The notes beneath the pieces are model-generated. The model was not told where the DNA came from and searched no databases. It saw only the letters and a program-made list of their open reading frames with translations. The position numbers and the translations under genes were made by a program. 64,000 bases of DNA from positions 1,798,001 through 1,862,000 of the forward strand of contig OX439050.1 of assembly GCA_949317995.1 (NCBI GenBank), read 5' to 3'. This DNA is from Acholoe squamosa (lineage: Eukaryota > Annelida > Polychaeta > Phyllodocida > Polynoidae). Shown one piece after another: positions 4,012-31,937 of this stretch (the first letter of the stretch is position 1; the number at the start of each line of letters is the position of its first letter).

Positions 4012-4311
4012 ATTGTTTTCAAGGGGCTTCCCCTGTGAAAAGTCAAAAAGGAATTAGAATGATTATTTTCACTGGGAAACGTTGGTAATATTACAGAGCT
4101 GAGCAAAAGACAGGAGGACAGCTACAAAAAGAGAGAATAGGAAAGATTAAGGATTTTCACTGGCTCTGCCTCTGTGAAAATCTGCACAGGGCATTATCCC
4201 ACTGAACAAATCCATTAAGATGAGCGAAAAGGTAATTTTCACTGATAAAGCTTAGTGAAAGGAAAATACTTTTCACCAAGGATTATCCCAAGAGAAAAAT
4301 TGTGGGTGGGG
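4012..4311 (+). repeat. GTGAAAA/TTTTCAC cluster (array leader)
   Basis: A cluster of short inverted words (TTTTCAC, GTGAAAA, CCTGTGAA) spaced by a few tens of bases. The same leader precedes CT-rich arrays at 17,540-17,720, 18,780-18,905 and 23,730-24,120, and follows one in inverted form at 27,960-28,380. Non-coding; likely a foldback-rich repeat family. Confidence 0.65.
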
Positions 4312-5893
4312 TTCACTGTCTGTCTGCCTCACCTTCTCTGTCTGTCTGCTCTGTATGACTCCGCTTCTCTGTATGACTCCGCTTCTCTACCTGCCTCCCC
4401 TAGTCTTCTTCCCCTCCTACTCCGTCTGCCTCCCCTACTCTGCCTGCCTCCCCTACTCTCTCTGCGTCTCCTATTCTGCTGCCTCCCTTACTCTCTCTGC
4501 CTCCCCTACTCTGTCTGCCTGTCCTACTCTGTTGGCTACCCCTACTCTGTCTGCCTCACCTTCTCCATCTGCCATTCCATACTCTGTCTGCCTCACTACT
4601 CTGTATGCTTTTACTACTCTGTCTACCTGCCCTTCTCTGACTGCCTCCCATACTCTCTCTGCCTCCACTTCTCTGTCTGTCTCATTAACTCTGCCTTTCC
4701 TTTTCTGTCTGCCTTGCCTACTATGTCTGCATGCCCTACTCTGTCTGTATCCCCTACTCTGACTGCCTCATAATCTATGTCTAAGCTTCACTACTCTGTC
4801 TACCCTACTCTGTCTGTCTTCTCTAATCTCTGTCCCTACTCTGTTTGTCTCCCCTACTCCCTTTAATCTGTCTGTCTCCTCTACTCTGTCTGCCTCCCCT
4901 ATTCTGTCTGCCTGCTCTGCTCTGTCTGCCATCCCCTACTCTGTCAGCTTGCCCTACTCATTCTGTAACATACCACTATTTCAATCACATTTCCATTCTG
5001 GCTTTCACACCCATATCTGTCTACCTCGTCGATTTTTCTGCCTGCCCAACTATATCTTCCCAACTATATCTGCCTGCCCAACTATATCTGCCTACTCTGC
5101 ATGCCCCATCCTGTCTGCCTCCCCTACTATGTCTGCCCTCCCCATCTCTGTCTGCCTCCCCTAATGTCTGTCTTCTCTACTGTCTGCCCTCCCCTTCTCT
5201 GTCTGCCTCCCCTACTCTGTGTGCCTCCCCTACTCTGTACGCCCTTTCCTTCTTTGCCTGCCTCCCTTTCTCTGCCTGCCTGCCCTTCTCTCTCTCTGCC
5301 TCCCCTACTTTGTCTGCCTCCCCTAATATGTTTGCCTCCTTATTTCTGCCTTCCCTACTTTGTCTGCCTCCACTACTCTGTTTGCCTGCCTTTTCAACGG
5401 TCTGTCTCCCCTACTGTGTCTGAATCCCCTATTCTTTCTGCTTCCCCTAGACTGTGTGTTTCCTTTATTCTGAATCCAACACTGTCTGCCTCCCCTACTC
5501 TGTCTGCCTTACCAACTCTGTCTGCCTGCCTTACTCTGTCTGCCTCCTTTGTTATGTATGCTTCCCTTTAATCTCTGTGCATCACATTCTCTGTTTGGCT
5601 CTCTTTAATCTGTCTGTCTGCACTGCTCTGTCTGATTGTGCTTCTCTGCCTTCTTCTCCTACTCTGTCTGCCTCTCTCCCTCTGCCTGCCTCCCTTTCAC
5701 TGTTTTCCCTGTCCTACTATGTCTGCCTCCCCTACTCTGCCTGCCTCCCCTACTCTCTCTGCCTGTCCTGTTCTGCTGCCTCTCTTACTGTCTCTGCCTC
5801 CCCTACTCTGTCTGCCTGTCCTACTCTGTTGGCTACCCCTACTCTGTCTGCCTCACCTTCTCCATCTACCTGCCCTTCTCTGACTGCCTTCCT
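4312..5893 (+). repeat. 18-bp minisatellite (CTGTCTGCCTCCCCTACT), 1.6 kb
   Basis: Long imperfect array of CTGTCTGCCTCCCCTACT with point and length variants. Overlapping open frames of 65-192 codons exist in several phases on both strands; they are Leu/Pro/Ser/Cys-rich by-products of an 18-bp unit and are not annotated as genes. Parts of the array are themselves duplicated: about 4430-4560 reappears at about 5725-5855. Confidence 0.9.
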
Positions 5894-7395: not shown

Positions 7396-9018
7396 AACCA
7401 AAACATTCATTCAAACCCCTAACCCTACCCCTAAATTAAATTCTAACCCTAACCCAAAAGATAACCCTAACCATAACATCTCCCCTAAAAGTTACTCTAA
7501 CAGTTGCCCTGACCCTAACCCTAACCTGAACTCTAAACCCTACCTTTCCCTTAGCAACAACCCTAACCCTAATCCTATCCCTAACCTTAACACTTAGCCT
7601 GACCCTAATTCGAACCTTATACCTAATCCTAACTTAACCCTAACCTTTACCCTAACAGTGGCCCTGAGCCTAACCCTAACCTTAACCCTAACCCTTATGT
7701 TTCCCTTAACCCTAAGCCTAAGCCTAAGCCTAACCCTTTTTACCCACACTAGTTAACCCAGAATCTAATAAAAGAGTAATCCAAACCAAAACATTGGTTC
7801 TTGCCTTAGTCATCACATTAAAGGTAACCCTAATGTTTGCAAAATCCTAACCCTGCATTTATATCCTTACCCAAACCTTAACCCTAACCTGAATTTGACT
7901 CCAATCCTAACCCTTACTGTAACCCTGAACCTAACCTAAACCTTTAGCTTAGCTCTAACCATAACCAAACCCCTAACCCTACCCCTAAATTAAATTCTAT
8001 TCCTAACCCTAACTCAAACTATAACCCTAACTATAACATCTCCCCTAAATGTTATCTAACAGTGGCCCTGATCCTAACCCTAACTTTAATTCTAACTCCT
8101 ACCTTTCCTTTAGCACCAACCCTAACCCTAATCCTATCCCTAATGCCAACCCTAACCCTAACCCCAACCCTGTCCCTAATCTCTTCCCTAATTCTTAGCA
8201 TAACAATAACTCTACACCTAACCCTAAGGCTAACCCTGACCATGACCCTGACCCTAATGCTAACCTTAACCCTACCCCCAACCCTAAACCCAAACCATAG
8301 CCTGTCCCTTAACCCTTAACCTGACAGCAGCCCTAACCTTAACGATAAGCCTTACCTTTCCCGTAACCCTAACCCTAACGCTTAACCCTAACCCCAACCT
8401 TAACCCTAACCTCAAACGTAACCCTAACCCCAAAACTCACCCTAACACTTACCTTTCGCTTAACTCAAACCCTAACTTTAACCATAGCCCTACCCCTTAA
8501 CCCTAACCCTATTCCTAACCCTAACCCTAACCCCAATCCTAACCCTAACCCTAACCTTAACCCTAACCCTGACCCTAATGCTAACCTTATCCCTAATCCA
8601 AACTCTAAACTTAACCCTAACCTTTACCCTAACAGTACCCCTAACCTTAACCTAAGCCTAAGCCTAAGCCTAACCCCAACCCCAACCCTATTCCTATTCC
8701 TAATCCTTACCCTAACCCTAACCCTAACCCCAACCCCAACCCTAACCTTAACCTAAACCCTAACCCTAATCCTAACCTTATCCCTAATCCAAACTCTAAA
8801 CTGAACCCTAACCTTTACCCTAACAGTAGCCCTATCCTTAACCTAAGCCTAAGCCTAACCCCAACCCCAACCCCAACCCTAACCTTAACCTAAACCTAAA
8901 CCCATACCCAAACCCTAACCCTAACCTTAACCCTAATCCTAACCCTAGGCCTAGTCCTAGACCTAACCCTAACCCTTAGTTCAACTCCAACCCTAACCCT
9001 AGCCATAATCCTAACCAT
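7396..9018 (-). repeat. Interstitial telomeric repeat block, CCCTAA strand
   Basis: About 1.6 kb dominated by CCCTAA and variants (CCTTAA, CCCCAA, CCTAAG) on the plus strand. It is degenerate rather than a pristine telomere, with occasional non-telomeric words. A 23-bp-scale phrase around GTAATCCAAACCAAAACATT occurs twice (about 7388 and 7777), suggesting internal duplication. Confidence 0.95.
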
Positions 9019-9134
9019 TGCTCTAACTCTATGCAATGTATACAATTTTAAATATTATGTCAACTGCAACATTTTGAATAAGGAGGAATTCCAGGCCCAG
9101 GGAACGAGTTCATACAGGATAAGAGTAAATGAGC
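9019..9134. other. Junction between opposed telomeric blocks
   Basis: About 115 bp of non-telomeric sequence separating CCCTAA (left) from TTAGGG (right). It includes the AT-rich ATACAATTTTAAATATTATG and CCAGGCCCAGGGAACGAG. It is the symmetry centre of the opposed modules. Confidence 0.7.
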
Positions 9135-9592
9135 AAGGTTGGGTGAGGGGTAGATTAAGGTAAGGGTTATGATTAGGGTTAGGTTTTAAGGTGGGTTAGA
9201 GTTTGGGCTAGGGTAAGGGTAAAGTTTAGAGTTAAGATTAGGGCTGGGGTTATCGTAAGGGTTACTGGTAGGGTTAGGTTTAGGGTTAAGGGTATGGGTA
9301 AGGTTAGGGTTAAAGTTGCAGGAGGGTTAGGGTTACAGTTAGGAGAGAGGTTAGGGTTAGGGGTGGGGTAAGGGTTAGGGTCAAGTTTAGAGGTAGGATT
9401 AGGTCCTGGATTAGGGTAGGGTTAGGGTTAGGGTTTAGGTTAAGTTTAGGGTTAGGATTAGGGCTATGGTTAGGGCTAGGGCTAAGGTTAAGGGTAGGGT
9501 TAGGGTTAGGATTTAGGTTATATTTAGCGTTAGGAATAGGGCTAGGGTTGGCTTAGGGTGAGGGTTTAGGTTAGGGTTAGGGTTAACAATTG
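9135..9592 (+). repeat. Interstitial telomeric repeat block, TTAGGG strand (part 1)
   Basis: Degenerate TTAGGG array (GGGTTAGGGTTAGG and variants). It is split from its continuation at 10,932 by a LINE insertion. Confidence 0.95.
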
Positions 9593-10930
9593 AGTTTGAG
9601 TTTAACAATTTTATTGGCACAATAGCATCATACAAAGGAAGCTTTTCAGGATTTGCCAAACAAAAGAAAGAAAATCAAATAATCAAAGAGAAATGAGACA
9701 TTCGCTGCGATCGGATTACAAGAAAGGTACATGGTAGATAATTCACATCGCCGACTGGCATTCATTGATGTAATAATGGTCCGTGTAGTATATTGCTTAT
9801 CATGAGATAAAGTCAAACTGCAGACTCGGTCGCCTTTACATATTGTAGCTACTTATGATATAGCATGATTACGATACCTTTGACATAAATTCCTTTTTGG
9901 TATCCATTTTTTTTATATCTCCGCTTAATTTATCCCAAAGTATTTTGCCACGGGATAAAGGACATTTATCATATACCATACATGTTGATCTACTAACTTT
10001 AAGTTGGATCTTATCATTGCCTCTTAGTACTCGTGTGGGCACTCTCACATGTTCTCTTTCCTTTGATACATCATACATGATACCTAACAATGATTTGTTA
10101 CGCCTAACTTGGAGTAGCTGGCATTGAGATCTTACATGTAAGTCATGAACTGAAATGTCCCTGGGATCTTTTATGCCATAGACTAACCTTAAACAATGGT
10201 TTTGCATAGTTTGTAGTTTTTTTACATTGGTATTTGGTCCACATTCGTGTATAAAACTGGCATGTTCAATCGAAGGTAGAACCATTTGTTTGTACAGTTT
10301 TAAACACAGGTTGCCGTCTAAATATTTCCTTAGCTTTCTTAGTTGGTAACATCTTGTTTGGAAAGTGGCCTTGACCTTGTCCATGTGTTTGGAGAAATTC
10401 AATTCCCTATCCACAATGACACCAAGATAGTTGAAATTCTCAACAACTTCAAGTGGTGAACCACCTAGATTAACCGACTGCTGGGCTAAATTAAGTCTAT
10501 TATATAACAGGCTTGGGGCAGTCCAGAGTAACTTGGTCTTATCAGTATTTACAGTCAGTTTATATATACAACACCAGGAGTATATATTACAAAGATCATG
10601 CTGTAGGTCAGCTATTACAGTGGCAGCATTTTCACCTGAGGCATAAACAGCTAAGTCATCTGCATAGAGGCAGTACTTACATTTCTCAATAACATTTGTT
10701 ATCTGGTTTATATAAATTACAAAAAGCAGGGGCCCCAGCACTGATCCCTGGGGCACACCACAGGATATAGTCAAGTCGGTGGAGACAAACCCATTTGCTG
10801 TAGTACATTGAGTCCTACCACATACGTAGGACCTTAGCCAACCAATACTGTGGGGTGAAAAATTAAGTTTTCTCATTTCCATCAGCAAGAGGGAGTGATC
10901 GACCGTATCAAAAGCCTTCCTCAGATCGAG
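9593..10930 (-). mobile_element. 5'-truncated LINE inserted in TTAGGG repeats
   Basis: A minus-strand non-LTR retrotransposon fragment with telomeric repeats on both sides. The 5' end is truncated inside the reverse transcriptase near 10,930. The 3' end (about 9593) carries AATAAAA on the minus strand near 9610-9616 and no poly(A) tail, ending in a short TTGTTAA-rich sequence. That fits CR1/Jockey-like or other non-poly(A) clades. The 3' untranslated part is about 9593-9868. Confidence 0.9.
9869..10927 (-). pseudogene. LINE reverse transcriptase, C-terminal two thirds
   Basis: One uninterrupted frame of about 353 codons running right to the truncation point, so the annotated end is a break and not a start codon. 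An internal ATG lies at 10,888. Seen in order: the RT domain aspartate motif DLRKAFDTVDH, GVPQGSVLGPLLF, the catalytic YADD box followed by LAVYA, NTDKTK, and YLGV, then the thumb and C-terminal region. Missing: the endonuclease and the RT N-terminus. In the family the enzyme copies its own RNA at a nicked target. This copy cannot be autonomous. No stop codon or frameshift interrupts what remains, so the insertion may be fairly recent. The clade (CR1/Jockey/I-like) is uncertain. Confidence 0.9.
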
Positions 10931-10931
10931 G

Positions 10932-11300
10932 TTACGGTTTGGGGGTGGGTAAGTGTTAGGGTTAGGGTTAGGGGAGAGGTTACGCTCAGGGTTATGGTTA
11001 GGGTTGGGGTGAGGGTTAAGGTTGGGGTGAGGGTTAAGGTTGGGGTAAGGGCTAGGGTTAACGGTTAGGGTTGGGTATGGGTTAGGCTTCAGGGTTAGTG
11101 ATAGGGTAAGGGTTAGGACAGAGGTTAGGATTAGGGTTGGGGTAAGGATTACGGTTATGGTTAGGGTTGGGGTAAGGGTTAGGCTTCGGGTTTAGGTTAG
11201 GGTTAGGGCTAAGGTTAGGTTTAGGTTAGGGTTAGCGTTACATTTAGGGTTAGGGCTGGAAACAATTTCAGGTTAACGTTAGGGTTGGGGTAACGGTTAG
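10932..11300 (+). repeat. Interstitial telomeric repeat block, TTAGGG strand (part 2)
   Basis: Continuation of the TTAGGG block beyond the LINE, with many TTAGGGTTGGGGTAAGG variants. It fades out near 11,300 into module sequence. Confidence 0.95.
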
Positions 11301-11393
11301 ATATAAATAGTGTTTAACATTTGATACCTCTTAACCATTTAGATTAAGGGTTAGGTTTAGATTAGCTTTGGTATGGATTACTGTTATAGATTC

Positions 11394-11524
11394 CTAGAGG
11401 TCATTTCTTAACATACTATGACTACCGTTTCCAAGTCATTCCAAAATCCCCATAGGAATAGCATTGAGATTTCAACTCATAGTGCTGTGTGTGGTCTTAG
11501 TGCATTAGGAAATTGTCTCCTGAG
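11394..11524. mobile_element. MITE-like element, short copy
   Basis: About 131 bp bounded by imperfect inverted ends (CTAGAGGTCATTTCTTAA at the left; TTAGGAAATTGTCTCCTGAG at the right). The left end plus the following ACATACTATGACTACC resembles the 265-bp element at 22,209-22,473. No ORF. The superfamily and target duplication are not determinable by eye. Confidence 0.55.
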
Positions 11525-11539
11525 GTCTATATTTAGTGT

Positions 11540-12113
11540 AAATAATAGGACTAGGGTTAGACCTTTCATTAGTGAAAAGGCGGAATGGCTATTATAAGGG
11601 CACATAGGGTAGAGTAAGATAGGGAAATGCCTAGTATTAACTGTCAATGTTGGGTCTAGTTTGATTCCATTTCAATGACTAGGGATTGTTGCATTGAAAA
11701 TATAGGGACAAAAGTTGCAAGATAGCAATCAGCAATATATTAGCTGCACTATTCACAAAGCAAGCAGGTTTTATTCAAAGAATATAATTAATCAATTATT
11801 CTGTATTGTATGCAACAGGTTCATGAGGAAAGGGCAATAAGTGAACGCTCTTTGACATGGGATATGTTCTGTGAAAGTTGGGTACTAAGTAACAAGTTTG
11901 ATATCATCTAGAATTGATATAATAATTTTCACAGGTAAGGATCGGTGAAAATTTGTTTTCATCGGGGTTCCCCTGTGAAAAAACGAATAAGAATTAGAAT
12001 AATTATTTTCAGTGGGAAATGCTGGTGAAAATTATTTCATTGGCCTTTCCCTGCGAAAAATAAGGAAATTCATCGTCAGCGATATTACGGAGGTGAGTCG
12101 ATGCCACCATATA
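11540..12113 (-). repeat. Module M, inverted copy, left of the Ngaro insertion
   Basis: The reverse complement runs colinear with about 28,205-29,000: the GTGAAAA cluster, then CCCTTTCCTCATGAACCTGTTG, then AATCCCTAGTCATTGAAAT, then the sequence leading into telomeric repeats. The match breaks at 12,113 where the Ngaro element begins, and resumes at 17,461. Confidence 0.85.
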
Positions 12114-12312
12114 TGGGTGAGACCAATCCTGATTGGTCTATGTATTGATACGGTCAGTACCACTACTACTCACCCACCTGCTACTCCTACACACACACAC
12201 ACACACACACTGCTACTCCTCCCTGAACATACCTGTGGGCAGTGACCCACTACTGCAGCCTGCCAGCCTAAGGGCACACACACATGGGACTCTTCCACTG
12301 CTTCAATTTTTT
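12114..12312 (+). repeat. Ngaro split direct repeat A1
   Basis: Repeated at 17,141-17,339 at a constant offset of 5027 bp, with no difference seen. It begins TGGGTGAGACC, contains the 20-bp palindrome AGACCAATCCTGATTGGTCT (12,120-12,139) and an (AC)11 tract, and ends in CTTCAATTTTTT. Alone at the element's left end, it forms the 5' half of the split repeat. The likely gag transcript leader starts in this region. Confidence 0.95.
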
Positions 12313-14260
12313 GTTTTTTTTATGCATCATGGTGGTCTGTTTGGTATGCCAACAGGCATACCATGGCAACAAAAAGCACTGCCCCAACTGTGGGGTGCTA
12401 AACCACAAACTCACGGAGGAGACCAGGAGTAATGCAGTTTTTCATGAGGAAGAAGGGGGAGACCAAGGAGCTTCCAATATGGCCACCCCCTTGGGAGAGA
12501 GAAGGCAGAGTAATACACAGCCAAAGTCACCAGAAGCTATTCTCCAGGAGAAGATTGCTATAGCAGAAGAGAAGGCAGGACTACTCAGGAAAAAAGGTGA
12601 CCTCTTAGCATTAGAAGAAAGGCTAGCCTTAATTGACTTAGAGAATGCAGAACTGGAGGAGGATTACAAAAAATCCCTCAAAGACATACAGCAGAAGCAG
12701 CAGAGTGCTGCACACAAGAGGAGGGGTGCATTTGTAAATTTTCATGATTTGACTGCACCTAACAGCAGCTATTACCAGGGAGAAACGTTAAAGAACGCAC
12801 CCAGGAGCAGCAGCAGATACGCCGACGACCGAGCGGAGTACACAACATTTACGAATGCAGCCAGCAGCGCCAAAGCCGAAGACGCCCGGACCTTGCCGAG
12901 CGCCTCCGAAGGCATATCCAACCCGAACACGGCCGGACACATACGGAGATACCCGAACGCCGCCGAAAACGGGCTCGGAGAGAGTCGGGGACAGTCGGCA
13001 GATGTACGGAGAATACCGAACGCTACTTCGGGTTTCTTCGGCGACGTAAACTCCTACAGCGGATTGAAAAAGAGCGGTCACGGCTTGGATTACGATACAC
13101 ACCAGAGAGCAAACGCAAGCGGCATATTAACCAACGAGGATATACCGAGCGCTGCCGACAGCCTAGGTCGGAAACTTTCGGATTACGTCGGCTCGGGCAA
13201 GCTCGGCAATGTTCGTGAACGCTCGGGAGTGCAAGATGGCGTTCCTTCCGCTTTCGCCGAGGGAGACAATTTGCAGCAGGAGTTTATGCTTTTTTTAGCT
13301 GGAAAACAGCAAAAATTGCTCAATCAGGCCAAGCAGAACCCAGTAGGCAGTGCTCCAGTCCCAACCACAGCAGCACAGGAGGTACCACAGCTGTATTACT
13401 TGGATGGGACACCCTACACTGGGTCTTTGCCTGACACACAACATCAACAACACAGGATCACACCACCCAAGCTTCCCCCCTCTGCTACCATCCAGGCTGG
13501 ATTATCAACTGCAGGCCTGAACGCTGAGAATATGGGCGTGGAGGGGGACCTTGCCGGCTACCTGGATGCAAAGGACCAAGGTGACTTGTTATCCACTTTA
13601 TTTAAGATAGGTGAAGCTTCTAAGAAAAAGAGGTCACAACACTGGTTAAGGCCAGATTACCACATTCCCACTGACAAAGTCTACTCTGATATGACATACA
13701 GAGAGCTAATATATGGTATGACATGTGTCCAGGAGAAGTTAGCTATTGCTAATTTACCACAGTGGTCTGCAAAAAGTTATGGTGACCATATGAGATTCGT
13801 AGCTAGGAAGGGTCTCAATGCCACTTATACCTCGAGTGCACTAGCTAAATATGAGCACGATCTCACTACTAGAGTGATTTCAGGGGAGTTACCCGGATTT
13901 CAGACAGCTGAGCACGCATCAGTCTCTGATAATTTGGGCTCCGATAACCTACAGGTGGTACAGGATTTGAAGGCTGAATTAGCCAGATTAAAAGCAGGTA
14001 ACAAACAAGGCACTAAAGGTAAAGGCCCCTCTACTCAAAACAGAATCCATTGCCCTACGGATGTTTGTGCTTTGTTCAATTTCACTAGATGTTGGTATAA
14101 CCCATGTAACAGGCAACACGTATGCGCGGTATGTAAGGGCCCCCACCCAGCAAAAGGGGGGTGCAAAAATCAGCCAACAACCACAAGCAGTGGAGCAAAC
14201 AATAATGCGGGAGGGGGGTCAACCTTTTTCGCACCACCGATCCACTCCCGCGTATCTTGA
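12284..14260 (+). CDS. gag: Ngaro Gag-like protein
   Basis: A 658-residue frame, first of the element. The first ATG (12,284) lies within repeat A1; ATGs slightly downstream (for example at the MVVCLVC segment near residue 16) are equally plausible starts. N-terminus: two CxxC pairs (CLVC, CPNCG) that could bind zinc. Residues about 83-145 are Glu/Lys/Leu-rich and probably coiled coil. Residues about 165-330 form a low-complexity, CpG-rich linker with repeated P[NS]A motifs. Residues about 425-560 form a more ordered region, probably capsid-like. The C-terminus has further cysteines (C590 onward) and a zinc-knuckle-like CAVCKGPHPAKGGC (C614, C617, H621, C627). Role by family: a nucleocapsid-like RNA-binding structural protein. 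It ends in a TGA that is in frame with the RT frame. Confidence 0.85.
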   Translation: MGLFHCFNFLFFLCIMVVCLVCQQAYHGNKKHCPNCGVLNHKLTEETRSNAVFHEEEGGDQGASNMATPLGERRQSNTQPKSPEAILQEKIAIAEEKAGLLRKKGDLLALEERLALIDLENAELEEDYKKSLKDIQQKQQSAAHKRRGAFVNFHDLTAPNSSYYQGETLKNAPRSSSRYADDRAEYTTFTNAASSAKAEDARTLPSASEGISNPNTAGHIRRYPNAAENGLGESRGQSADVRRIPNATSGFFGDVNSYSGLKKSGHGLDYDTHQRANASGILTNEDIPSAADSLGRKLSDYVGSGKLGNVRERSGVQDGVPSAFAEGDNLQQEFMLFLAGKQQKLLNQAKQNPVGSAPVPTTAAQEVPQLYYLDGTPYTGSLPDTQHQQHRITPPKLPPSATIQAGLSTAGLNAENMGVEGDLAGYLDAKDQGDLLSTLFKIGEASKKKRSQHWLRPDYHIPTDKVYSDMTYRELIYGMTCVQEKLAIANLPQWSAKSYGDHMRFVARKGLNATYTSSALAKYEHDLTTRVISGELPGFQTAEHASVSDNLGSDNLQVVQDLKAELARLKAGNKQGTKGKGPSTQNRIHCPTDVCALFNFTRCWYNPCNRQHVCAVCKGPHPAKGGCKNQPTTTSSGANNNAGGGSTFFAPPIHSRVS

Positions 14261-16045
14261 TGTACAAATAATATTGACGGTGCCCATGATATTCCGGATT
14301 CCTACGGTTCCGCGGTCAATGTAACAACCGACAATTTACCAGACATTTATTGTGATAGAGACTCGCTTGTGTGTACTTCGGACATATCAGAATTATTGTC
14401 AACTTATGTAAGCTATGCTCCATTGTGGGATATTAACTCCACCCATATCCTAAAAGGGGTCAGATCTCAAATGAAACCCGCAGGCTGGTTATCAATGCTT
14501 AGTGGAGGCCCTAATTCGGTTTATGGTACAAATGGTTGGGATTATGACGCCGCATTCCTAATGGACGGCATAATGCACGGGTTTAAAGTAGTGGACCCAA
14601 ACACACATATTAGTGAGTATAGCACTAAGAACTATGTACCCCAAGAAGCAAGGAACTTCATTGATAACCTGCTAAAGACAGAAGTAGACCAAGGCAAATT
14701 GTCTATAGTCACAGCAGCACCTACTTGCATCCACGCCTTAGGTGCGGTTGAGAAAAGAGATGGCAGTTATAGACCGGTAACGGACGCCAGTAGACCAGAA
14801 GGTCTATCTATTAATTCACACATGAACGAGACATTCCATCACTTTAGTTACACTAGCATCGATGATGTGACCAAGGTGCTCCGACCCGGTATGTTCATGG
14901 CAGTCACAGACATTTCCGCAGCATACCGCTCTATTATGATTAGGCCAAGCGATAGGCAATTCCAGGGCCTACAGTGGACATTCGACTCACAGAAAGTGTA
15001 TTTCGTGGACAACTTTGTGTCATTCGGCACTAGAATGGCTGCATTCCTCTTTAATAGGATTACTGACAGCATAGCTCGTTATATGAGAGCTAACGGTTAT
15101 TATTGCTTTAATTATCTCGATGACTTACTTACTATGGGTAACTCATATGCGGAGTGCCAAAAAGCACAGTTGTTTCTACATAGCACACTCCACTCGTTGG
15201 GTTTTTTCTTATCCTATAAGAAGGTTCTTTCACCGGCACAAGTTCAAATTTATCTAGGGATAGAAATTGACTCACTACAAATGTGCCTCAGACTACCGGA
15301 GAGCAAGATCAATAAATTGCACAGTGAGCTACGTTTCTTTGTAGGTCGTCGAAGGGCAACCAAGAAACAGCTGCGCCGTTTATGCGGGATCTTAGCACAC
15401 TGCTCTACTTTAGTCAGGGGGGGCAGGACATTCTCTCACAGAGTCATAGGCATGTTATCTGCGTTCACGAGCACTAAAAGTTACATAACCCTCTCTACCG
15501 GGTTCTTCAAGGACCTAGACTGGTGGCTAAGATTCGCAAAGTGGTTTAATGGCGAAGCAAAAATTGTCAGCACTCTACCGTCCACAAAAAGTGACTTATA
15601 CATGGACGCATCAGACAGGGGTTACGGTGTCAGGTACGGCAAGGACTGGATATGTGCAGGTTGGGGATGCAGGATCAGTATTCACATAGACAGTCATGGA
15701 CACTGCCTCCCGCCACCTAGTCAATTCGTGCCTGAAAACATAAACATCAGGGAGCTATACCCCATCTTAATGGCGATTAATAGGTGGGGACCTTTGTGGC
15801 GCAATAGGAAAATTGTCTGTTACACGGATAACACCCATGTAGTAAGCGCACTGAATAAGGGCAAAAGTACAAATACAAGAGCGATGGACTTCCTGAGAGA
15901 ACTGTTTTGGCTTACAGCTCTTTATAACTGCCATATTGTAGCATTACATATCCCAGGACGACTTAATGTCCTTGCAGATGCTTTGTCAAGAGTGTTATAT
16001 TACCCGCATAACCTTCCTATGTATCTATGTTGTAGCGGCGGCTAA
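14261..16045 (+). CDS. pol: Ngaro reverse transcriptase - RNase H
   Basis: The frame is open from the codon after the gag stop to TAA at 16,043-16,045. The first in-frame ATG is 14,471 and a GTG lies at 14,369, so I annotate the whole open frame and leave the start undecided. Counting from the GTG: RPVTDASRPEG near 135, the first catalytic aspartate in AVTDISAAY (D181), VSFGTRMAAFLF, the catalytic YLDD box (249-252), and YLGIEID. The RNase H domain follows with YMDAS (D413), REL (E462), YTDN (D487) and ADALSR (D537), a complete D-E-D-D set. By family it makes cDNA from the element RNA and removes the RNA strand. It shares the gag frame with one TGA between them and overlaps the recombinase frame by 80 bp. 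Confidence 0.93.
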   Translation, partial: CTNNIDGAHDIPDSYGSAVNVTTDNLPDIYCDRDSLVCTSDISELLSTYVSYAPLWDINSTHILKGVRSQMKPAGWLSMLSGGPNSVYGTNGWDYDAAFLMDGIMHGFKVVDPNTHISEYSTKNYVPQEARNFIDNLLKTEVDQGKLSIVTAAPTCIHALGAVEKRDGSYRPVTDASRPEGLSINSHMNETFHHFSYTSIDDVTKVLRPGMFMAVTDISAAYRSIMIRPSDRQFQGLQWTFDSQKVYFVDNFVSFGTRMAAFLFNRITDSIARYMRANGYYCFNYLDDLLTMGNSYAECQKAQLFLHSTLHSLGFFLSYKKVLSPAQVQIYLGIEIDSLQMCLRLPESKINKLHSELRFFVGRRRATKKQLRRLCGILAHCSTLVRGGRTFSHRVIGMLSAFTSTKSYITLSTGFFKDLDWWLRFAKWFNGEAKIVSTLPSTKSDLYMDASDRGYGVRYGKDWICAGWGCRISIHIDSHGHCLPPPSQFVPENINIRELYPILMAINRWGPLWRNRKIVCYTDNTHVVSALNKGKSTNTRAMDFLRELFWLTALYNCHIVALHIPGRLNVLADALSRVLYYPHNLPMYLCCSGG

Positions 16046-17024
16046 GCTATGCGAAGATTTGGACATGAAAGCGGCAATAGCGAGAGCGCATGCTTGGAGC
16101 GTTTCCACCTGGAAAACTAAATGCAGCCAATGGAAAAGATTTATTGTGTTCTGTACCATCTCTGCCTCTACAGTCGTACCCACTTCGGTTCAGACCATGT
16201 GTCGATATTCAGTGTACCTGTCTTCGGACTTGAAGTATAGCACTATAGACAATTACGTGAGTGCAGTGATAAGTTTAAATGCACATTATGGCTACGACGT
16301 AGCTTGGATAAGGACAAATTTTATGTTTAAGTGTACTATGTCAGGTCTGCGCAGGATCCTCGGTGACCCTATACCCACTAGAGTCACACTGTCAGTTTCG
16401 CAACTCTTGGACATGTCTACAAGGGTGAATCTAGCAGTACCTGACCATTTAGCTATGTGGGCATGCATCGTTACTAGCTTCAGGACCCTTCTCAGGAAGA
16501 GCAACCTAGTAGTAGACAACGCAGCAAAAGCATCACCACACTTTCTAAGAAGAAAGTCTGTATCATTCACTAGCTGGGGTATGATTGTCACGGTTTCAAG
16601 CTCAAAAACAATCCAATTTGGACAGAGAGTCCACCACATCCCGGTCGTAGGAGTCCCTAACTCACCACTTTGTGCAGTATCTTTACTCAAGAGACACTTT
16701 GACGGTACCCCCACGACAGACCCTGAAGCACCCGCCTTCCTAGTGCGCAAAGGGAATTCGCTGGTCCCATTACAATACTCAGCACTACTTAAGTTCCTGA
16801 AACACCTACTAAGTACTATTGGGATAGATACAAACAGGGCCGGAATACATTCTCTGAGACGTTCAGGCGCTGCCTTTATGCACCTGTGCGGTATCCCACT
16901 AGAGGACATCAGATACACCGGTGACTGGACAAGCTTGTCTGCTCTTTTGTACTTAGCCAAACCACTTGGTACCAGGATAGATATAGACAATATAGTCGCC
17001 ACGGCACTGAAAGCTACTTTTTAG
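15966..17024 (+). CDS. Ngaro tyrosine recombinase (integrase)
   Basis: A 352-residue frame in a different phase from the RT. It starts at ATG 15,966 inside the RNase H coding region; a second ATG at 16,065, just after the RT stop, may be the true start because the first 33 residues merely mirror the overlapped RNase H codons. Catalytic set visible: R177 in LLRKSNL, H295 and R298 in GIHSLRRSG, W321 in GDW, and nucleophile Y329 in SALLYL, eight residues after the Trp, as usual for the family. An N-terminal SAM-like DNA-binding region (WKTKCSQWKRF and following) precedes the catalytic domain. By family it integrates circular element DNA at short matching sequences without duplication. The frame is complete and apparently functional. 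Confidence 0.93.
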   Translation: MSLQMLCQECYITRITFLCIYVVAAAKLCEDLDMKAAIARAHAWSVSTWKTKCSQWKRFIVFCTISASTVVPTSVQTMCRYSVYLSSDLKYSTIDNYVSAVISLNAHYGYDVAWIRTNFMFKCTMSGLRRILGDPIPTRVTLSVSQLLDMSTRVNLAVPDHLAMWACIVTSFRTLLRKSNLVVDNAAKASPHFLRRKSVSFTSWGMIVTVSSSKTIQFGQRVHHIPVVGVPNSPLCAVSLLKRHFDGTPTTDPEAPAFLVRKGNSLVPLQYSALLKFLKHLLSTIGIDTNRAGIHSLRRSGAAFMHLCGIPLEDIRYTGDWTSLSALLYLAKPLGTRIDIDNIVATALKATF

Positions 17025-17071
17025 ACATACTAATGTGTAGAGTATCAGGACTATATCATTGTTCTGGTGTT

Positions 17072-17141
17072 GCCGGGTCATTTGGACTCAGTTTAGCCCA
17101 GACCGCAGCTACTCGTCCTTCATTACTGTTCCAGAATCAAT
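17072..17141 (+). repeat. Ngaro repeat B1
   Basis: A 70-bp unit from GCCGGGTCATTTGGACTC to CCAGAATCAAT, repeated at 17,391-17,460 with one difference (G17108 versus A17427). It abuts A2 directly (CAGAATCAATGGGTGAG); this junction should copy the closed-circle junction of the element. Confidence 0.95.
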
Positions 17142-17339
17142 GGGTGAGACCAATCCTGATTGGTCTATGTATTGATACGGTCAGTACCACTACTACTCAC
17201 CCACCTGCTACTCCTACACACACACACACACACACACTGCTACTCCTCCCTGAACATACCTGTGGGCAGTGACCCACTACTGCAGCCTGCCAGCCTAAGG
17301 GCACACACACATGGGACTCTTCCACTGCTTCAATTTTTT
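17141..17339 (+). repeat. Ngaro repeat A2
   Basis: Internal copy of A1, joined to B1 with no gap. It shows the same AGACCAATCCTGATTGGTCT palindrome and the same (AC)11 tract, so the two copies were probably set by copying one template at the last transposition. Confidence 0.95.
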
Positions 17340-17390
17340 TTTTTATGTAATTTCTCTGTATTAATATGTTATTACTTGTTAATAAATAGG
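17340..17390 (+). promoter_or_regulatory. A2-B2 spacer with poly(A) signal
   Basis: About 50 bp of AT-rich DNA with AATAAA at 17,381-17,386, the likely transcript polyadenylation signal of the Ngaro element. A1 is followed instead by the gag frame. Confidence 0.55.
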
Positions 17391-17460
17391 GCCGGGTCAT
17401 TTGGACTCAGTTTAGCCCAGACCGCAACTACTCGTCCTTCATTACTGTTCCAGAATCAAT
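17391..17460 (+). repeat. Ngaro repeat B2 (right end)
   Basis: Second copy of the 70-bp B unit; it ends CAGAATCAAT at 17,460. The following AGTATATCTCCCTCCAGTG is host module sequence, recognised from the empty paralogue at 28,180-28,200. Confidence 0.95.
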
Positions 17461-17884
17461 AGTATATCTCCCTCCAGTGATTTAAAATTTGAAAGACACA
17501 CAGAAACAGCTAGTATCAAGCAAAAAAGAGGAGGATAGCTACAAAAAGAGAGAAGAGGAAAGATAATGGATTTTGACTGGCTTTGTCTCTGTGAAAATTT
17601 TCACAGGGCATTTTCCCTGTGAAGAAATCCTTTCAAATGATAGAAATTATAATTTTCACGGAGAAAGCTCAGTGAAAGAAAATACTTTTCACCCAGGTTT
17701 ATCCCAAGAGAAAGAATTTTGGTGGGGTGCCTCTGACTGCCTCCCCTTCCCTTTTCTCAAGGTAAAGCATTTCTTTTGAAGCCAAATATCTGTCAGTGTA
17801 TTCCAAGAAACAAACTCTGTGTCTATACACAATTCAACTGTGATTTGTTTGTGATCATGAACCTTGATAACTAAAACTAACTAA
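17461..17884 (-). repeat. Module copy right of the Ngaro insertion
   Basis: Resumes the inverted match to about 27,960-28,195 (CCTCCAGTGATTT, GAAAGACACACAG, the GTGAAAA cluster). It contains a perfect 18-bp palindrome CTGTGAAAATTTTCACAG at 17,589-17,606. From about 17,770 it matches 19,735-19,830. Non-coding. Confidence 0.75.
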
Positions 17885-18150
17885 GTACAGAGTTCAGACA
17901 GACACAGTAAGTTGTGGCAGACAAAATAACCTGTAAGATTCAGAGTGGGATGTGACAGACAGAGTAGGGCTTTACAAACAGAGTGGGGTGTGACAGAGTG
18001 GTATGTGAAAGATAAAGTAGGGTTTTACAAACATAGTGGGGTGTGACAGACAGAGTAGGGTTTTACCAACAGAGTGAGATGTGACAGACACAGTGGGATG
18101 TGACAGACAGAATGGGGTGTTACAGACAGAGTGGGGTATGACAAATAGGT
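17885..18150 (-). repeat. 19-bp minisatellite, inverted
   Basis: Units of AGTGGGGTGTGACAGACAG, the reverse complement of the array at 748-1128. Confidence 0.9.
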
Positions 18151-18530
18151 TACAAGCAACGAAGTTATAAGTGAACTTAGTTTAACTCTATACATTTTCT
18201 GTGATTTAATGGCTATGAATGCAGACTGGCAGGTGTCCACTGGGGGTTGAATTGCACTGTGATAATCTACAAAGCTCTATGGAACTTGGCCTCAATTAAC
18301 TCCCAAAGGGTCTGCCTCATCTCCTCTTTAATTACTTGCTCTCCATTAGACGATATAAAGCATGTTTTATATTTTTGTTTAGGGTTTGTGCTGTATATAT
18401 CCACAATAATGTGTATCTACATTCATTTGTTAAACTTTATGTATCAAAACATTTCAAATAGAAAATTCAACCAAATACCAAACCTATTTGCTCCCCAAAA
18501 ACCTTTATCTATATGCCTCCTCTATTTCTT
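18151..18530. other. Spacer, nothing recognised
   Basis: AT-rich, no repeat relative noticed in the window. The long plus-strand frame starting near 18,247 runs into the minisatellite and shows no protein-like features, so it is not called. Confidence 0.4.
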
Positions 18531-18778
18531 TACATTCCCTACTCTGTCAGCCTCCCCTACTCTGTCTGCCTTCCCCTACTCTGTCTACCTCCCCTACTCG
18601 CTCAGCCTCCCCTTTTATGTCTGCCTCCCCAACTCTGTCTGCCCTCCTCTTCTCTGTTTGCCTCCCCTACTCTCTCTGCCCTCTCCTACTCTGTCTACCT
18701 CCCCTACTCTGTCAGCCTCCCCTACTCTTTCTGCCTCCCCTACTCTCTGCACCTCCCCTAATCTGTCTGACCTCCCCT
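18531..18778 (+). repeat. 18-bp CT-rich minisatellite
   Basis: Array of CTGTCTGCCTCCCCTACT variants (also CTGTCAGCCTCCCCTACT). Confidence 0.9.
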
Positions 18779-18905
18779 TTTTACAGGGGATTGTCCCTGT
18801 GAAGAAATCCGTTGAGATGACAGAAATGGTAAATTTTACTGATGAAGCTCAGTGAAAGAGAATACTTAGGAATATCCCAAGAGAAAGGTCGTGGGTGGGG
18901 TGCAC
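18779..18905 (+). repeat. GTGAAAA/TTTTCAC leader between arrays
   Basis: Short copy of the array leader (CAGGGGATTGTCCCTGTGAA, GAAGCTCAGTGAAAGAGAAT, GTGGGTGGGGTGCACC), as at 24,000-24,130. Confidence 0.8.
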
Positions 18906-19735
18906 CATCTGTCTGCCTCACCTTCACTGTCTGACTCTCTTTAATCTGTCTGCCTTTCCTACTCTATCTGCATGCCATATTCTGCCTGTATCTGTCTGCC
19001 TCATAATCTCTGTCTTCCCTTTACTACTCTGTTTACCCAACACTTTCTGTCTTCCTCAATCACTCTGCCTGAAATACTCTGTCTGTCTCCCCTACTCGGT
19101 CTGTCTCCCTTTAATCTCTCTGCCTCACCTTCTCTGTTTGCCTCTCTTTAATCTGCCTGCCTGCCCTGCTGTGTCTGTCTCCCCTTCTCTGACTGCCTCC
19201 ACTAGTCTGCCTCCCATTCCTACTCTGTTTACCCCTCTACTCTGTCTGCCTCCTCCGTGTCTTCCTCCTCTACTCTGTCTGCCCCCTTTATTCTTTCTGA
19301 CTCACCCAATCTGTCTCCCTCCTCTACCTATTCTGCCTACCCTACTCTCTCTGCCTCCCCTAAAATGACTGCCTGCACTAGTTTGTGTTCCTCTCCCCTA
19401 ATCAGGTTTACTTGACTATTTTGCCTGCATCCCCTTCTCTTTCTGCCTCCCTTATTCAGTCTGCCTGCAATACCTTCTTTGCCCCACCTGCTCTGGCCAT
19501 CTTCCCTACTCTATATGTCTCGCCTTCCCCATCTTCCTCCCCCACTCTCTCTGCCTCAAATATTCTATCTGTGTCTGTTACTCTTTCTGCCTCAACTACC
19601 CTCTCTGCCTGCCTTATAACTCTGCCCCCTCTTTCTTTGCCTCTTCTTTTACATTTGCCTCATCTTTTCTGCCTGTGCTCACACTTCTGTATGTCCTTTT
19701 TGACTGTCTGCCCATATTTTGTGTATCTTTGAATT
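18906..19735 (+). repeat. 18-bp CT-rich minisatellite, degenerate
   Basis: Continuation of the CTGTCTGCCTCCCCTACT family with many variants. Its unit order resembles 24,130-24,900 (for example ...CTCAACTACCCTCTCTGCC...), so the two arrays are copies of one longer array rather than independent expansions. Confidence 0.9.
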
Positions 19736-20087
19736 TCAAGCCAAATAGGTTTTAGTTTATTCTTGGAACAACCTGTGTGTCTATACACTATTGAACTGGG
19801 GGTAGTTTCTTACCATGAAGCTTCAAAACCAAAACTTACTTATTACATAGACCTAGGTCATTGTGAGCTGATATACTATATGCAATGTCCCAATAAACAT
19901 TACACACATATCATCATTTACTTCTGAAATATTACAACCACCAGTTGTAAAATCCATTATGTTAGTGCTCTGTTATTGGTGACTAAGAAGTGTCCAGTGT
20001 TTTCATGTCATTAATGTTTTATGGAATTATTGATTCAATATAGAGCGTTGTATCTGATTACTCATGGTGCATTGCTCTGGTATGGTA
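19736..20087. repeat. Inter-array segment
   Basis: Begins with TTCAAGCCAAATAGGT...TTATTCTTGGAACAACCT, shared with 24,976-25,014 and loosely with 17,770-17,830. The rest to 20,087 has no other copy; its counterpart in the 25-kb unit is missing (replaced by a LINE). No gene. Confidence 0.6.
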
Positions 20088-20460
20088 CAAAGTCTTTGCT
20101 CGACTGGTCATTAACCCCATAGAGAATTGATTTCCAGAGGAGAACATGATCAAAGGCATAAATAATGACTTTCGTACAAGCAGAGGAAGGTGACTCAGTA
20201 CTCGTCAAATACTGTTTGGTTCCTGTGGATTGATTGGCCAGTAAGATATTATAGTTAATTCAAGATCTCTACCTTTACACACAGACCAGAACACACTGAG
20301 TCACTCAGCATCCAGACATCAGCATGATAAGATGTCAGCCATAGACTCCTGTATGGACATAAAAACAAACACAGTCTGAGTATGACTGCTGTTTGACCAA
20401 ACCACACCTCATCTGACCAAGACCACTGACAATTCCAAAGTGCAGGTACGTTTCAGTTTC
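20088..20460 (+). repeat. Duplicated module U, copy 2
   Basis: Nearly full-length match to 1-345 (CTTTGCTCGACTGGTCAT through CTCCTGTATGGACA). It lacks the palindromic insert of copy 1. Non-coding. Confidence 0.85.
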
Positions 20461-20689
20461 TCCTTATGGATGAAGGGTGTTTTCCATTAACAATTTCCAC
20501 TCACAGAGAAGCACACTGTGTTTTTGATTTGTGTGTTCCTACCCACAATGCCAGAACTGTATATTATTTGGTTTTCTTTTTATCAGCAAATCGTTAACTG
20601 TCATAACTGATATTTCACCCCTTCTATCTGTTCAAAGCCCTACTGCGTTTGTAACTCAACTCTGAAAGTCATTAATCTATGTCTATCAG
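20461..20689. other. Spacer following module U
   Basis: AT-rich sequence partly related to 480-700 and 26,440-26,560. No gene. Confidence 0.4.
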
Positions 20690-21415
20690 CCACTGACTCT
20701 CTGTATGTCAGCCACTCACTCTCTGTCTGTCAGCCACTCACTCTCTGTCTGTCAGCCATTCACTCTCTGTCTTTCAGCCACTCACTCTCTGCCTGTCAGC
20801 CACTCACTCTCTGTCTGTCAGCCACTCACTCTCTGCCTGTCAGCCACTCACTCTCTGTCTGTCAGCCACTCACTCTCTGTCTGTCAGCCACTCACTCTCT
20901 GCCTGTCAGCCACTCACTCTCTGTCTGTCAGCCACTCACTCTCTGTCTGTCAGCCACTCACTCTCTGTCTGTCAGCCACTCACTCTCTGTCTGTCAGCCA
21001 TTCACTCTCTGTCTTTCAACCATTCACTCTCTGTCTATCAGCCATTCACTCTCTGTCTGTCAGCCACTCACTCTCTGTCTGTCAGCCACTCACTCTCTGT
21101 CTGTCAGCCACTCACTCTCTGTCTGTCAGCCACTCATTCTTATGTCTATCAGCCACTAGCTCTCTGTATTTCAACACCTCACTCTCTGTCTGTCAACCAT
21201 TCACTCTCTGTCTGTCAAATATTCACTCTCTGTCTATCAGCCACTCACTCTCTGTATTTCAACCACTCACTCCTTGTGTGTAAACCACTCACTCTGTCTG
21301 TCAGCCATTCACTCTGTCTATCAGTCACTCACTCTCTGTCTGTCCACCGTTCACTCTCTGTCTGTCAGATACTCACTCTCTGTCCGTCAACCACTCACTC
21401 TCTGTCTGTCACATA
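20690..21415 (+). repeat. 22-bp minisatellite (CTGTCTGTCAGCCACTCA core)
   Basis: About 33 tandem units of 22 bp with core CTGTCTGTCAGCCACTCA; very regular at 20,700-21,130, more variable after that. A 192-codon frame across it is a repeat by-product. It shares the CTGTCTGTC core with the 18- and 19-bp families. Confidence 0.95.
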
Positions 21416-21775
21416 GATAGCTGGTTAGATGAGAGATACATAGATATCTGGTTAGTTGAGAGACACATAGATATCTGGTTAGATGAGAGATACATAGATA
21501 TCTGGTTAGATGAGAGATACATAGCTGGTTAGTTGAGAGACACATAGATAGCTGGTTAGATGAGAGATACATAGATATCTGGTTAGTTGAGAGACACATA
21601 GATATCTGGTTAGATGAGAGATACATAGATAGCTGGTTAGATGAGAGATACATAGCTGGTTAGTTCAGAGACACATAGATGGCTGGTTAGTTGAGAGATA
21701 CATAGATAGCTGGTTAGATGAGAGATACATAGATATCTGGTTAGTTGAGAGACACATAGATAGGTGGCTAGGTAG
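21413..21775 (+). repeat. 27-bp minisatellite (GATAGCTGGTTAGATGAGAG core)
   Basis: About 13 units of roughly 27 bp, with two alternating types (GGTTAGATGAGAGATACATA and GGTTAGTTGAGAGACACATA), some shortened. It starts immediately at the end of the 22-bp array. Confidence 0.95.
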
Positions 21776-22208
21776 GCTGACGGATGTACATCATGAAGAT
21801 AGGCAGCCTGAAGGAAAGTTAAATCAAAGGATATGTAGCATGAATCCTATAAACGTTTTGAGGGAAAACTTAATGAAACTCTAGATGCTTTAAGAGATAG
21901 TATGAGTGATAGGTAGACTAAGGTATAGGTAGTATGTGGGATAGGCAGAATATGTATCAGGTGGTGAGACAGATGTTGAGATATGTGACATGTACTGGGA
22001 AAGGGGGCCTTATTGCACCCTGCACTAAGACCCCTTTTTGCAGATTGCGTCACATATGTAGATTTAAGTACTGGTTTTGATTAGTATGTTTGTTAGCATG
22101 TTGCACCTTTAAAAAGTCCCAAACATTTTTAATATTACTTTTTGTACATTTTCAAAATATTCTCATCATCAAACCTTTCTTTTGGTATAGGTGGCCCCTT
22201 ATATCACT
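21776..22208. other. Degenerate GATA/TAGG-rich spacer
   Basis: 21,776-21,980 has decayed ATAGGTAG-like words, probably old minisatellite. 21,980-22,208 is unremarkable. No gene. Confidence 0.4.
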
Positions 22209-22473
22209 CAGGAGGCCATTTCTCAATGTACTATGACTGCCCACAGCCACTATGATTTAAAATCACCAAGAATAAGCCAGGCTGTCGTAGGAACTGCCCT
22301 ACGACTGCTCACTAAGATTAGCAGCTATGCAGTAATTACATAAGGTTTAGTAGGGCATTCGTACTGGTGCAGATATTAGGGACTTCTAGTGCATGGTACT
22401 GTTATGGCCAGATTATTAGGTTCTCACTACGATTTAAAGGACAGCAGTTGTGGTGTTAAGAAATGGCCTCCTG
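22209..22473. mobile_element. MITE-like element, 265 bp
   Basis: Bounded by inverted ends: left CAGGAGGCCATTTCTCAA at 22,209-22,226, right TTAAGAAATGGCCTCCTG at 22,456-22,473 (17 of 18 complementary). No ORF. A shorter relative lies at 11,394-11,524. I see no clear target duplication, so the superfamily is open. Confidence 0.7.
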
Positions 22474-22854
22474 GTAAAGATTCCTGACATATTCCCCTTT
22501 ATCTTACATAGGACACATGCACCAATGTGGTCCTTTTGAGCAGTCTCACAAGCATTTCATTAGTACATGATGATGACTAATTGTTAGGATGCACTCCTGC
22601 ATCAACAGCCCTAAAAGGGTAAAAGCAAATTTTAGAAGCAACTGAGAGAATGACTGTCAATAAATTAGTGTATACATGACCTAGTACACAAGTCATGCCT
22701 AGTCCTGAAATGTTGAAACATTTTCAAAATTGAAAAATAAAGGCTTCAAAAACACTGAATCGCCAAATTTCAGCCACTGCCTTACCGAAAAACGTCTCAG
22801 GTTAACAAGATTACAAATGAGAAAAGATAACTATCATTAATGCACTCTGAAAAC
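22474..22854. other. Spacer, nothing recognised
   Basis: AT-rich sequence without repeats or frames I can support. Confidence 0.35.
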
Positions 22855-23490
22855 CTGTCCTACTCTGTCTAACCTCCCCTACTCTGAATGCCTCCCTTAA
22901 TCTGTCTGTCATCCATTCTCTGTCTGCCTCCCCTACTCTGTCTGCACTCTCCTACTCTGTCTGCCTTCACTACTATGTCTGTCTGCCCTATTCTGTGTGT
23001 GTCCCTTTCAGTCACACCCCACTTTGTCTGACTCTGTCTGTGTCATGCAGCTCTGTCTGTCACATCCCACTCTGTCTGTCACACCTCACTCCGTCTGTCA
23101 CACACCACTCTGTGTGTCACATCCCACACTGTGTGTCAAACCCAATTTGTATGTCATACCCCACACTGTCTGTCACACTCCACTTTGTGTCTGTCACACC
23201 CCACTCTGTCTGTCACACCCACTCTGTCTGTCACACCCCACTCTTCTTGTCACACCCCACTCTGCCTGCTCTACTCAGTCTGCACTCTCCTTCTCTGTCT
23301 GCCTTCCCTACTATGTCTGTCTGCCCTATTCTGTCTGCCTCCCTTTCTGTCACACCCCACTTTGTCTGTTATATCTGACTCTCTCTGTGTCACGCAGCTC
23401 TGTCTGTCACACTCCACTCTGTCTGTCACACCCCACTCTGTCTGTCACACCCCACTCTCCCTGTCAAACCCCACTCTATTTCAATAACTA
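22855..23490 (+). repeat. Mixed 18-bp and 19-bp minisatellite array
   Basis: 22,855-23,000 and 23,265-23,345 carry the CTGTCTGCCT... 18-bp type. 23,005-23,265 and 23,345-23,490 carry CTGTCTGTCACACCCCACT. The two types alternate, and the whole switch (18-type into 19-type, including a GTCACGCAGCTCTGTCTGTC phrase) occurs twice, so a composite unit was duplicated. Confidence 0.9.
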
Positions 23491-24128
23491 GGATTATTCC
23501 AATAGTATATGTTATATAACATATAAAGGTTCTCCATCATCAATATTTTAAAATTTCAATGCTGACTAGGCCTCTCCTAGCAAAGGACAACAGAACCAAT
23601 GTGAAGTCAGGTATTATATGGTGGAAAAATTGGCTCTATGCCAAGTAGGACAGCCCTTAACCACTGTTTGTGTCGATGGGGTCCTATCACAAGAAGCTTA
23701 AAAATCATCTAGAAATTATATAATAATTTTCACAGGGAAAGATCGGTGAAAAATGTTTTCATCTGGCTCCCTCTGTAAAAATCAAATAATTAGAATAATT
23801 ATTTTCACAGGGAAACGCCAGTGAAAATCACTTCATTGGGCTCTCCCTCTGAAAAAATCAGGAAATTAGCCATCAGTGATATTATGGAAAGACACACAGA
23901 AACAGCTAGTATCAAGCTAAAGACAGATCTCGATATCTACAAAAAGAGAGAAGAGGAAAGATAAAGGATTTTCACTGGCTTTGTCTCTGTGGAAATTTTC
24001 ACAGGGGATTGTCCCTGTGAAGAAATCTGTTGAGATGATAGAAGTGGTAAATTTCACTGATAAAGCTCAGTGAAAGAGAATTCTTTTAACCGAGGATTAT
24101 CTCAAGAGAAAAGTTGTGGGTGGGGTGC
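23491..24128 (+). repeat. Duplicon D fragment plus GTGAAAA leader
   Basis: 23,525-23,680 matches duplicon D (GTTCTCCATCATCAATATTT, CTCTCCTAGCAAAGGACA). 23,680-24,128 is the GTGAAAA/TTTTCAC leader, including GAAAGACACACAGAAACAGC. Module order agrees with 3,830-4,311. Non-coding. Confidence 0.8.
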
Positions 24129-24905: not shown

Positions 24906-25024
24906 TTGTCTGTCTGCCCATATATTGTATATCTTTGAAGTTGCTACATTGTGACTCAAGTAAAAGCAGAACTTTTCAAGCCAAATAGGTGTTAGTTTAT
25001 TCTTGGAACAACCTCTCTGGCTAA

Positions 25025-26217: not shown

Positions 26218-26246
26218 TAAAAAAAAACAAACAAAAAAAAAAAAAC

Positions 26247-31556: not shown

Positions 31557-31559
31557 AAA

Positions 31560-31865: not shown

Positions 31866-31937
31866 GGGGAGAATGTCACTAATAAAAAGACTAGGCCCAG
31901 AACTGATAAACTGGCACAACTCACACCACAGAAAGCT

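Follow-up and report, generated by a model that had tools for sequence, protein, structure and literature searches.

A probably young Ngaro-type retrotransposon in Acholoe squamosa, with a UGA between gag and pol and a CpG-rich block in gag

The window, by which we mean the whole 64-kb stretch of DNA that was analysed, very probably carries a young Ngaro-type retrotransposon with a tyrosine recombinase, set in a genome depleted of CpG. The element belongs to a class of retrotransposons already known, whose members are copied from RNA and inserted by a tyrosine recombinase; it is a young example of that kind. Its unusual details are a UGA that divides one frame into a gag and a pol part, and a CpG-rich block within gag. 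A young, near-intact Ngaro-type copy with an empty site nearby is useful for the split-repeat replication model, and the position of an AATAAA together with the B1-A2 border leads to definite predictions on RNA ends and circle junctions. If the CpG block and the UGA prove common to other copies, they would bear on sequence gain and on Gag:Pol control. The coordinates of all features are collected in Table 1.

Table 1. Features of the element and its empty-site reference, in window coordinates
Feature	Position	Strand	Details and basis
Whole element	12115-17460	+	5,346 bp; repeat ends and empty site in paralogous host repeat
A1 split direct repeat	12115-12312	+	198/198 identical to A2
Perfect inverted repeat with two facing CCAAT boxes	12120-12139	+	9-nt arms, 2-nt loop; also in A2
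ORF1, Gag-like	12272-14260 (stop to stop)	+	First in-frame Met at 12284, 12329; ends in UGA 14258-14260
CpG-rich coding block in ORF1	12784-13259	+	476 nt; AGGGAGA at 12777-12783 and 13260-13266
Single UGA dividing gag from pol in one frame	14258-14260	+	Sequence and frames
ORF2, reverse transcriptase and RNase H	14261-16045	+	First in-frame Met 14471; Pfam and residues
ORF3, tyrosine recombinase	15942-17024	+	Met at 15966, 15978, 16065; Pfam and R-H-R-W-Y
B1 split direct repeat	17072-17141	+	69/70 vs B2
A2 split direct repeat	17142-17339	+	Identical to A1
AATAAA	17381-17386	+	4 nt before B2
B2 split direct repeat, 3' end of element	17391-17460	+	69/70 vs B1
Paralogous host repeat without element	27954-28401	-	Empty-site reference, unbroken across insertion point

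Extent, split repeats and insertion site

The element is laid out as A1-[ORFs]-B1-A2-B2, with split direct repeats, and AT is present both immediately before it (12113-12114) and as its closing dinucleotide (17459-17460). An earlier, sequence-only reading had placed its ends to within about 1 nt. That reading had also judged the A copies identical by eye and the B copies different at a single base, and both judgements were confirmed over the full repeats, with an (AC)11 tract in A1 as well as A2 and with G at 17108 against A at 17427 as the sole mismatch between B1 and B2. Its observation that a slippage-prone tract is equal in length in the two A copies held for (AC)11 but not for a T-rich tract on the inner border of A, which reads 6T-G-8T in A1 and 11T in A2. 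The T-rich tract may lie just outside the repeat. It was not used for dating because it stands at or beyond the repeat end, on a part which, in the model as we understand it, each copy obtains from a template of its own. Searching the 64-kb window with the element (blastn, E <=1) returned nothing besides the element and its own repeats, and tblastn of the three ORFs against the window gave no match outside the element.

The flanks of the element were found to be part of an older host repeat. A paralog of this repeat, read from 28401 to 27954, could be compared with the flanks over up to 100 alignment columns per side, with agreement at 76 of 96 aligned bases in the left flank and 76 of 86 in the right flank. 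Two other paralogs, at 23704-24153 and 4000-4339, have deletions right at the insertion point and are therefore unusable as empty sites. The joined flanks read CATATATAG against CATATAG in the paralog, with no duplication beyond one AT unit, (AT)3 versus (AT)2, so that a 2-bp duplication is possible. Since the paralog is uninterrupted, it independently supports the ends of the element and the lack of any target duplication beyond the possible AT. Ngaro elements are not known to duplicate their target on integration. A circle joined as ...CAAT|GGGTG... and used by a tyrosine recombinase would be expected to insert at AT, as seen here. For DIRS1-like elements, the accessible text of PMC3266345 describes a lack of target site duplication. 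The host repeat family is rich in TTTTCACAGGG/GGTGAAAA motifs and occurs at least four times in the window (3960-4375, 23690-24190, 27920-28420, and 11890-12114 plus 17461-17760, the last of which carries the element), as well as further partial matches.

Together the two repeat pairs show one difference in 268 positions, or 0.37%, with a Poisson 95% upper limit of about 2.1%. The A and B identities and the empty site in the paralogous host repeat support a recent insertion and a young copy, in agreement with the recent transposition proposed earlier. Repeat identity is taken as a mark of recent activity in the published model, so far as the excerpt of PMC6681497 goes.

Reading frames and classification

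The three frames are open over 662, 594 and 360 codons from stop to stop (ORF1, ORF2 and ORF3). Shuffling the element 1000 times produced open runs of at most 257 codons, and the longest in 21 sampled 5.3-kb stretches after the element (plus strand only) was 289, within a tandem array. One longer frame, of 440 codons, occurs elsewhere in the window on the minus strand at 9869-11191; by eye, it and a long frame at 25025-25855 (+) resemble fragments of non-LTR reverse transcriptases. The three frames are open, as had been described, but ORF1 and ORF2 are one frame split by the UGA. ORF3 lies in a different frame from ORF2 and overlaps it by 104 nt from stop to stop, whereas its methionine at 16065 follows the end of ORF2.

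In Pfam, ORF2 matched RVT_1 (3.8e-11) and, under the cut-off, RT_RNaseH (0.0096), while Phage_integrase was found in ORF3 at 9.5e-4 for the whole frame and 2.4e-4 for its C-terminal part, both under the curated cut-off. The residues named in the sequence-only reading were all found where it had put them: the reverse transcriptase YLDD starting at 15113, the RNase H D-E-D-D at 15605, 15752, 15827 and 15977, and the recombinase R, H, R, W and Y at 16494, 16848, 16857, 16926 and 16950. The W-to-Y spacing of the recombinase is 8 residues, compared with 9 in Cre, XerD and lambda Int. Against PDB sequences ORF2 gave 15 matches at E <=1, of which the best was 8r0s, 'Enzymatic polyprotein' (9.3e-6), a name which we take to be associated with caulimoviruses; retroviral-type reverse transcriptases followed from 8e-4. 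Whole ORF3 had no PDB match at E <=5, and its C-terminal part matched no recombinase at E <=10, just three unrelated fluorescent-protein chains. In PHROGs a weak integrase match was obtained for ORF3 (0.0016) and none for ORF2. No methyltransferase, aspartic protease, DDE integrase or SGNH domain was matched in the three ORFs by Pfam at E <=0.1, and ORF2 stops 21 residues past the final aspartate of RNase H, showing no sign of an extra domain.

The N-terminus of ORF1 shows a weak Zn-ribbon similarity, under the Pfam cut-off, and its C-terminal part had no Pfam match at E <=1. A cysteine/histidine cluster at 14066-14164 includes C-x2-C-x3-H-x5-C, which is near, yet unlike, the CX2CX4HX4C box given in the accessible text of PMC6681497. 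Two further Pfam matches under the cut-off, bMERB_dom for ORF1 (0.092) and nodavirus capsid for ORF3 (0.018), were set aside as chance. In viral contigs, pattern matches numbered 0 for ORF2, 1 for ORF3 and 7 for the C-terminal part of ORF1, and in prokaryote genome contigs 10 for ORF2, none of them confirmed; phages searched with ORF3 gave no match. Little or no animal DNA is expected in the viral, prokaryote, phage and plasmid collections, so misses there weigh little.

The Ngaro architecture proposed earlier was borne out. The repeats are split, pol combines reverse transcriptase and RNase H (weak for RNase H in Pfam, with D-E-D-D present), the recombinase follows pol and is read in the same direction, and no methyltransferase was matched. 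Split repeats, lack of a methyltransferase and a co-oriented recombinase after RT/RNase H characterize Ngaro as described in PMC8547959, PMC9210276, PMC3783388 and PMC3266345, so far as the excerpts go, and the lack of a methyltransferase is given as a Ngaro feature in those of PMC3266345 and PMC4157794. Ngaro ORFs are usually without overlaps according to the excerpt of PMC3266345, in contrast to the stop-to-stop overlap of ORF2 and ORF3 here. Our assignment to Ngaro is a structural one, and in the accessible text of PMC4157794 structure by itself is insufficient, as a PAT lineage with presumed loss of the methyltransferase mimics Ngaro. Points against a Ngaro-type description are the recombinase and RNase H matches under the curated Pfam cut-offs, the failure of sequence comparison to find a PDB recombinase, the W-to-Y spacing, the UGA, and the single copy in the window. 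The copy had also been called complete and possibly active. This was borne out in part only: the UGA parts pol from gag, and an insertion-like CpG-rich block stands in ORF1.

A PAT-like element that had lost its methyltransferase, and so resembled Ngaro in structure only, appears improbable. Such a lineage has been suggested in Caenorhabditis briggsae, and Pat1 elements carry a Gag zinc finger (both in the accessible text of PMC4157794), which could be compared to the cysteine/histidine cluster of ORF1. However, this explanation demands a loss, and the end of ORF2 so soon after RNase H bears no trace of an added domain. PAT-like and VIPER-like elements share split direct repeats and a tyrosine recombinase with the present element, but PAT-like elements normally have a methyltransferase, again in the excerpt of PMC4157794, whereas none was matched here by Pfam, and VIPER is known from kinetoplastids in the excerpts at hand. 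DIRS1-like elements have RT/RNase H and a tyrosine recombinase and lack target site duplication (excerpt of PMC3266345), against a possible 2-bp AT here; they differ in their inverted terminal repeats, internal complementary regions and methyltransferase, none of which was found in our element. Five inverted pairs of at least 25 nt (exact seed 12; shorter or more diverged pairs escape this search) were detected in 11000-19000, all at 17941-18696 and outside the element, and a DIRS1-like identity was dropped as no inverted repeats were found. An LTR retrotransposon was dropped for lack of an LTR layout and of a DDE integrase match. A Crypton was dropped likewise, as the element has a reverse transcriptase, which the definition of Cryptons excludes.

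Among the described elements, the Ngaro-type elements of Cafeteria burkhardae are alike in anatomy: A1-[ORFs]-B1A2B2, a Gag-like ORF1, RT/RNase H in ORF2 and a YR in ORF3 with HxxR and Tyr. The accessible part of their description (PMC8547959) contains neither a CpG block nor a gag/pol UGA. The Ngaro-like DIRS-53_XT and DIRS-54_XT of Xenopus also have split direct repeats, gag-like, RT/RH and YR genes, and repeat A is 236 bp and B 152 bp in DIRS-53_XT, versus 198 and 70 here. In contrast to our element, which has no SGNH match, non-overlapping gag and pol and an overlap only between ORF2 and ORF3, the Xenopus elements have an additional ORF for an SGNH hydrolase and overlaps among all ORFs (PMC9210276, in the text accessible to us).

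The UGA between gag and pol and a model of replication

The first in-frame AUG of ORF2, at 14471, lies 70 codons past the UGA. These 70 codons are stop-free in frame, as were those of 58 of 5000 shuffles (0.0116), and the other forward frames contain 3 and 6 stops. RNY over the same codons is 0.43 in frame versus 0.13 and 0.19 out of frame. By codon usage they did not stand out: 27.7% of 722 background values scored as high. On balance the 70 codons are coding, a call that leans on the RNY and stop-free tests, two of the three, and pol accordingly continues the gag frame. Given the UGA and no AUG for 70 coding-like codons, either Pol needs readthrough or non-AUG initiation, or the copy is lesioned. 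Nothing unusual was seen in the RNA structure of the 140 nt after the UGA with a pseudoknot-free model (z +0.65; 142 of 200 shuffles fold as well).

The UGA weakens the status of the copy as intact, and it could be explained either by damage or by regulation; on this evidence a lesion specific to the copy and readthrough are about equally likely. A copy dead on arrival, with the UGA as its own lesion and with related copies having an uninterrupted gag-pol frame, comes close to an even chance. It would agree with gag and pol abutting in the same frame at one stop, with the open and RNY-biased codons ahead of the first pol AUG, and with the ordinary folding after the UGA, pseudoknots being outside the model. 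It agrees less well with the remaining frames being open and the repeats near-identical, and the undistinguished codon-usage score detracts from it too. Programmed readthrough, or another non-standard start of pol, would yield far more Gag than Gag-Pol, as happens in some retroviruses, and is a real possibility, if somewhat below even. One frame, a single stop and coding-like sequence beyond it are what this explanation would lead one to see. On the other hand, the next 140 nt lack unusual structure within the same model, and the codon-usage score does not help here either. A C after UGA favours readthrough, but the base found is U. No report of readthrough for Ngaro was found in literature represented mainly by titles and abstract openings.

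Two candidate signals were noted in or next to the repeats. The AATAAA at 17381 would put the RNA 3' end inside B2 at the usual cleavage distance. A second AATAAA lies at 15311, inside ORF2, so that the one at 17381 has a counterpart and proves nothing by itself. The CCAAT inverted repeat, which begins 5 nt inside A, is a candidate promoter or recombinase site; among 2000 shuffles of A, 8 contained such a repeat, and the count for the whole element is 3. Rfam at gathering scores found nothing in 11500-18200. A bacterial promoter and terminator scan gave 5 versus 8.1 expected and 5 versus 4.3 expected, respectively, with bacterial models that are not applicable to this genome.

The geometry of the repeats can be combined with the published model into a possible replication cycle. 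The RNA would start inside A1 and be polyadenylated inside B2, at the AATAAA at 17381, and would thus be without the outer ends of A1 and B2. The internal B1-A2 border holds both missing ends joined, and could in this way template a circle, whose junction ...CAAT|GGGTG... would be the same sequence that is kept at B1-A2. The recombinase would then cross the AT of the junction with an AT of the host DNA, so that no target duplication would be formed. Gag and pol would be read in one frame, with pol reached past the UGA by readthrough, unless the copy is damaged there. The arrangement of the repeats is observed; where the RNA begins and ends, that a circle forms and that it recombines we infer from this arrangement together with the published model.

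The CpG-rich block in gag and the surroundings of the element

The block in ORF1 contains 57 CpG in its 476 nt, compared with 1 in the preceding 473 nt and 3 in the following 491 nt. CpG observed/expected is 1.35 over 12763-13280, 0.71 in ORF2, 0.62 in ORF3, 0.19 in 17461-37000 and 0.31 in the whole window. The first CpG of the block is 2 nt from one AGGGAGA and the last directly adjoins the other; the block plus one AGGGAGA is 483 nt, or 161 codons. RNY in the block is 0.41 in the ORF1 frame versus 0.16 in each of the others, and a fraction of 0.0046 of 5000 dinucleotide-block shuffles was stop-free in that frame, as the block is. No Pfam match was obtained for the block at E <=1; prokaryote contigs gave 98 pattern matches, none confirmed, and plasmids no match. 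Some 7-mer was shared in about 5% of 20,000 draws of random stretch pairs of such a size from the element. The AGGGAGA pair is therefore suggestive only, though a pair lying exactly at the edges of the CpG-rich stretch would be expected less often.

Judged from the sequence, the simplest reading of the block would be an in-frame insertion with a 7-bp duplication, and the block has the look of an acquisition. A wider explanation would join it to the UGA: a foreign CpG-rich segment of 476 nt (about 159 codons) would have been captured in frame into Gag with a 7-bp duplication, serving as a recently gained domain or as an internal CpG island protecting the element from methylation, and Pol would be made by UGA readthrough. 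This combination we consider doubtful. Against a foreign block stand the intermediate CpG values of ORF2 and ORF3, a 200-nt window from 14200 that reaches an observed/expected of 1.29, and further CpG-rich patches in the 64-kb window at 2651-3050 and 44751-45200, as well as another forward frame of the block that is nearly open, with only one stop.

The patch at 44751-45200 sits within a satellite and is unlike its surroundings there. This satellite is a long tandem array at 34500-64000 with a 562-bp period (self-match 0.84 at 562, on 38000-63900) and repeated ORF fragments. Degenerate 6-bp TTAGGG-like arrays are present at 7417-9585, 10947-11255 and 29112-29552.
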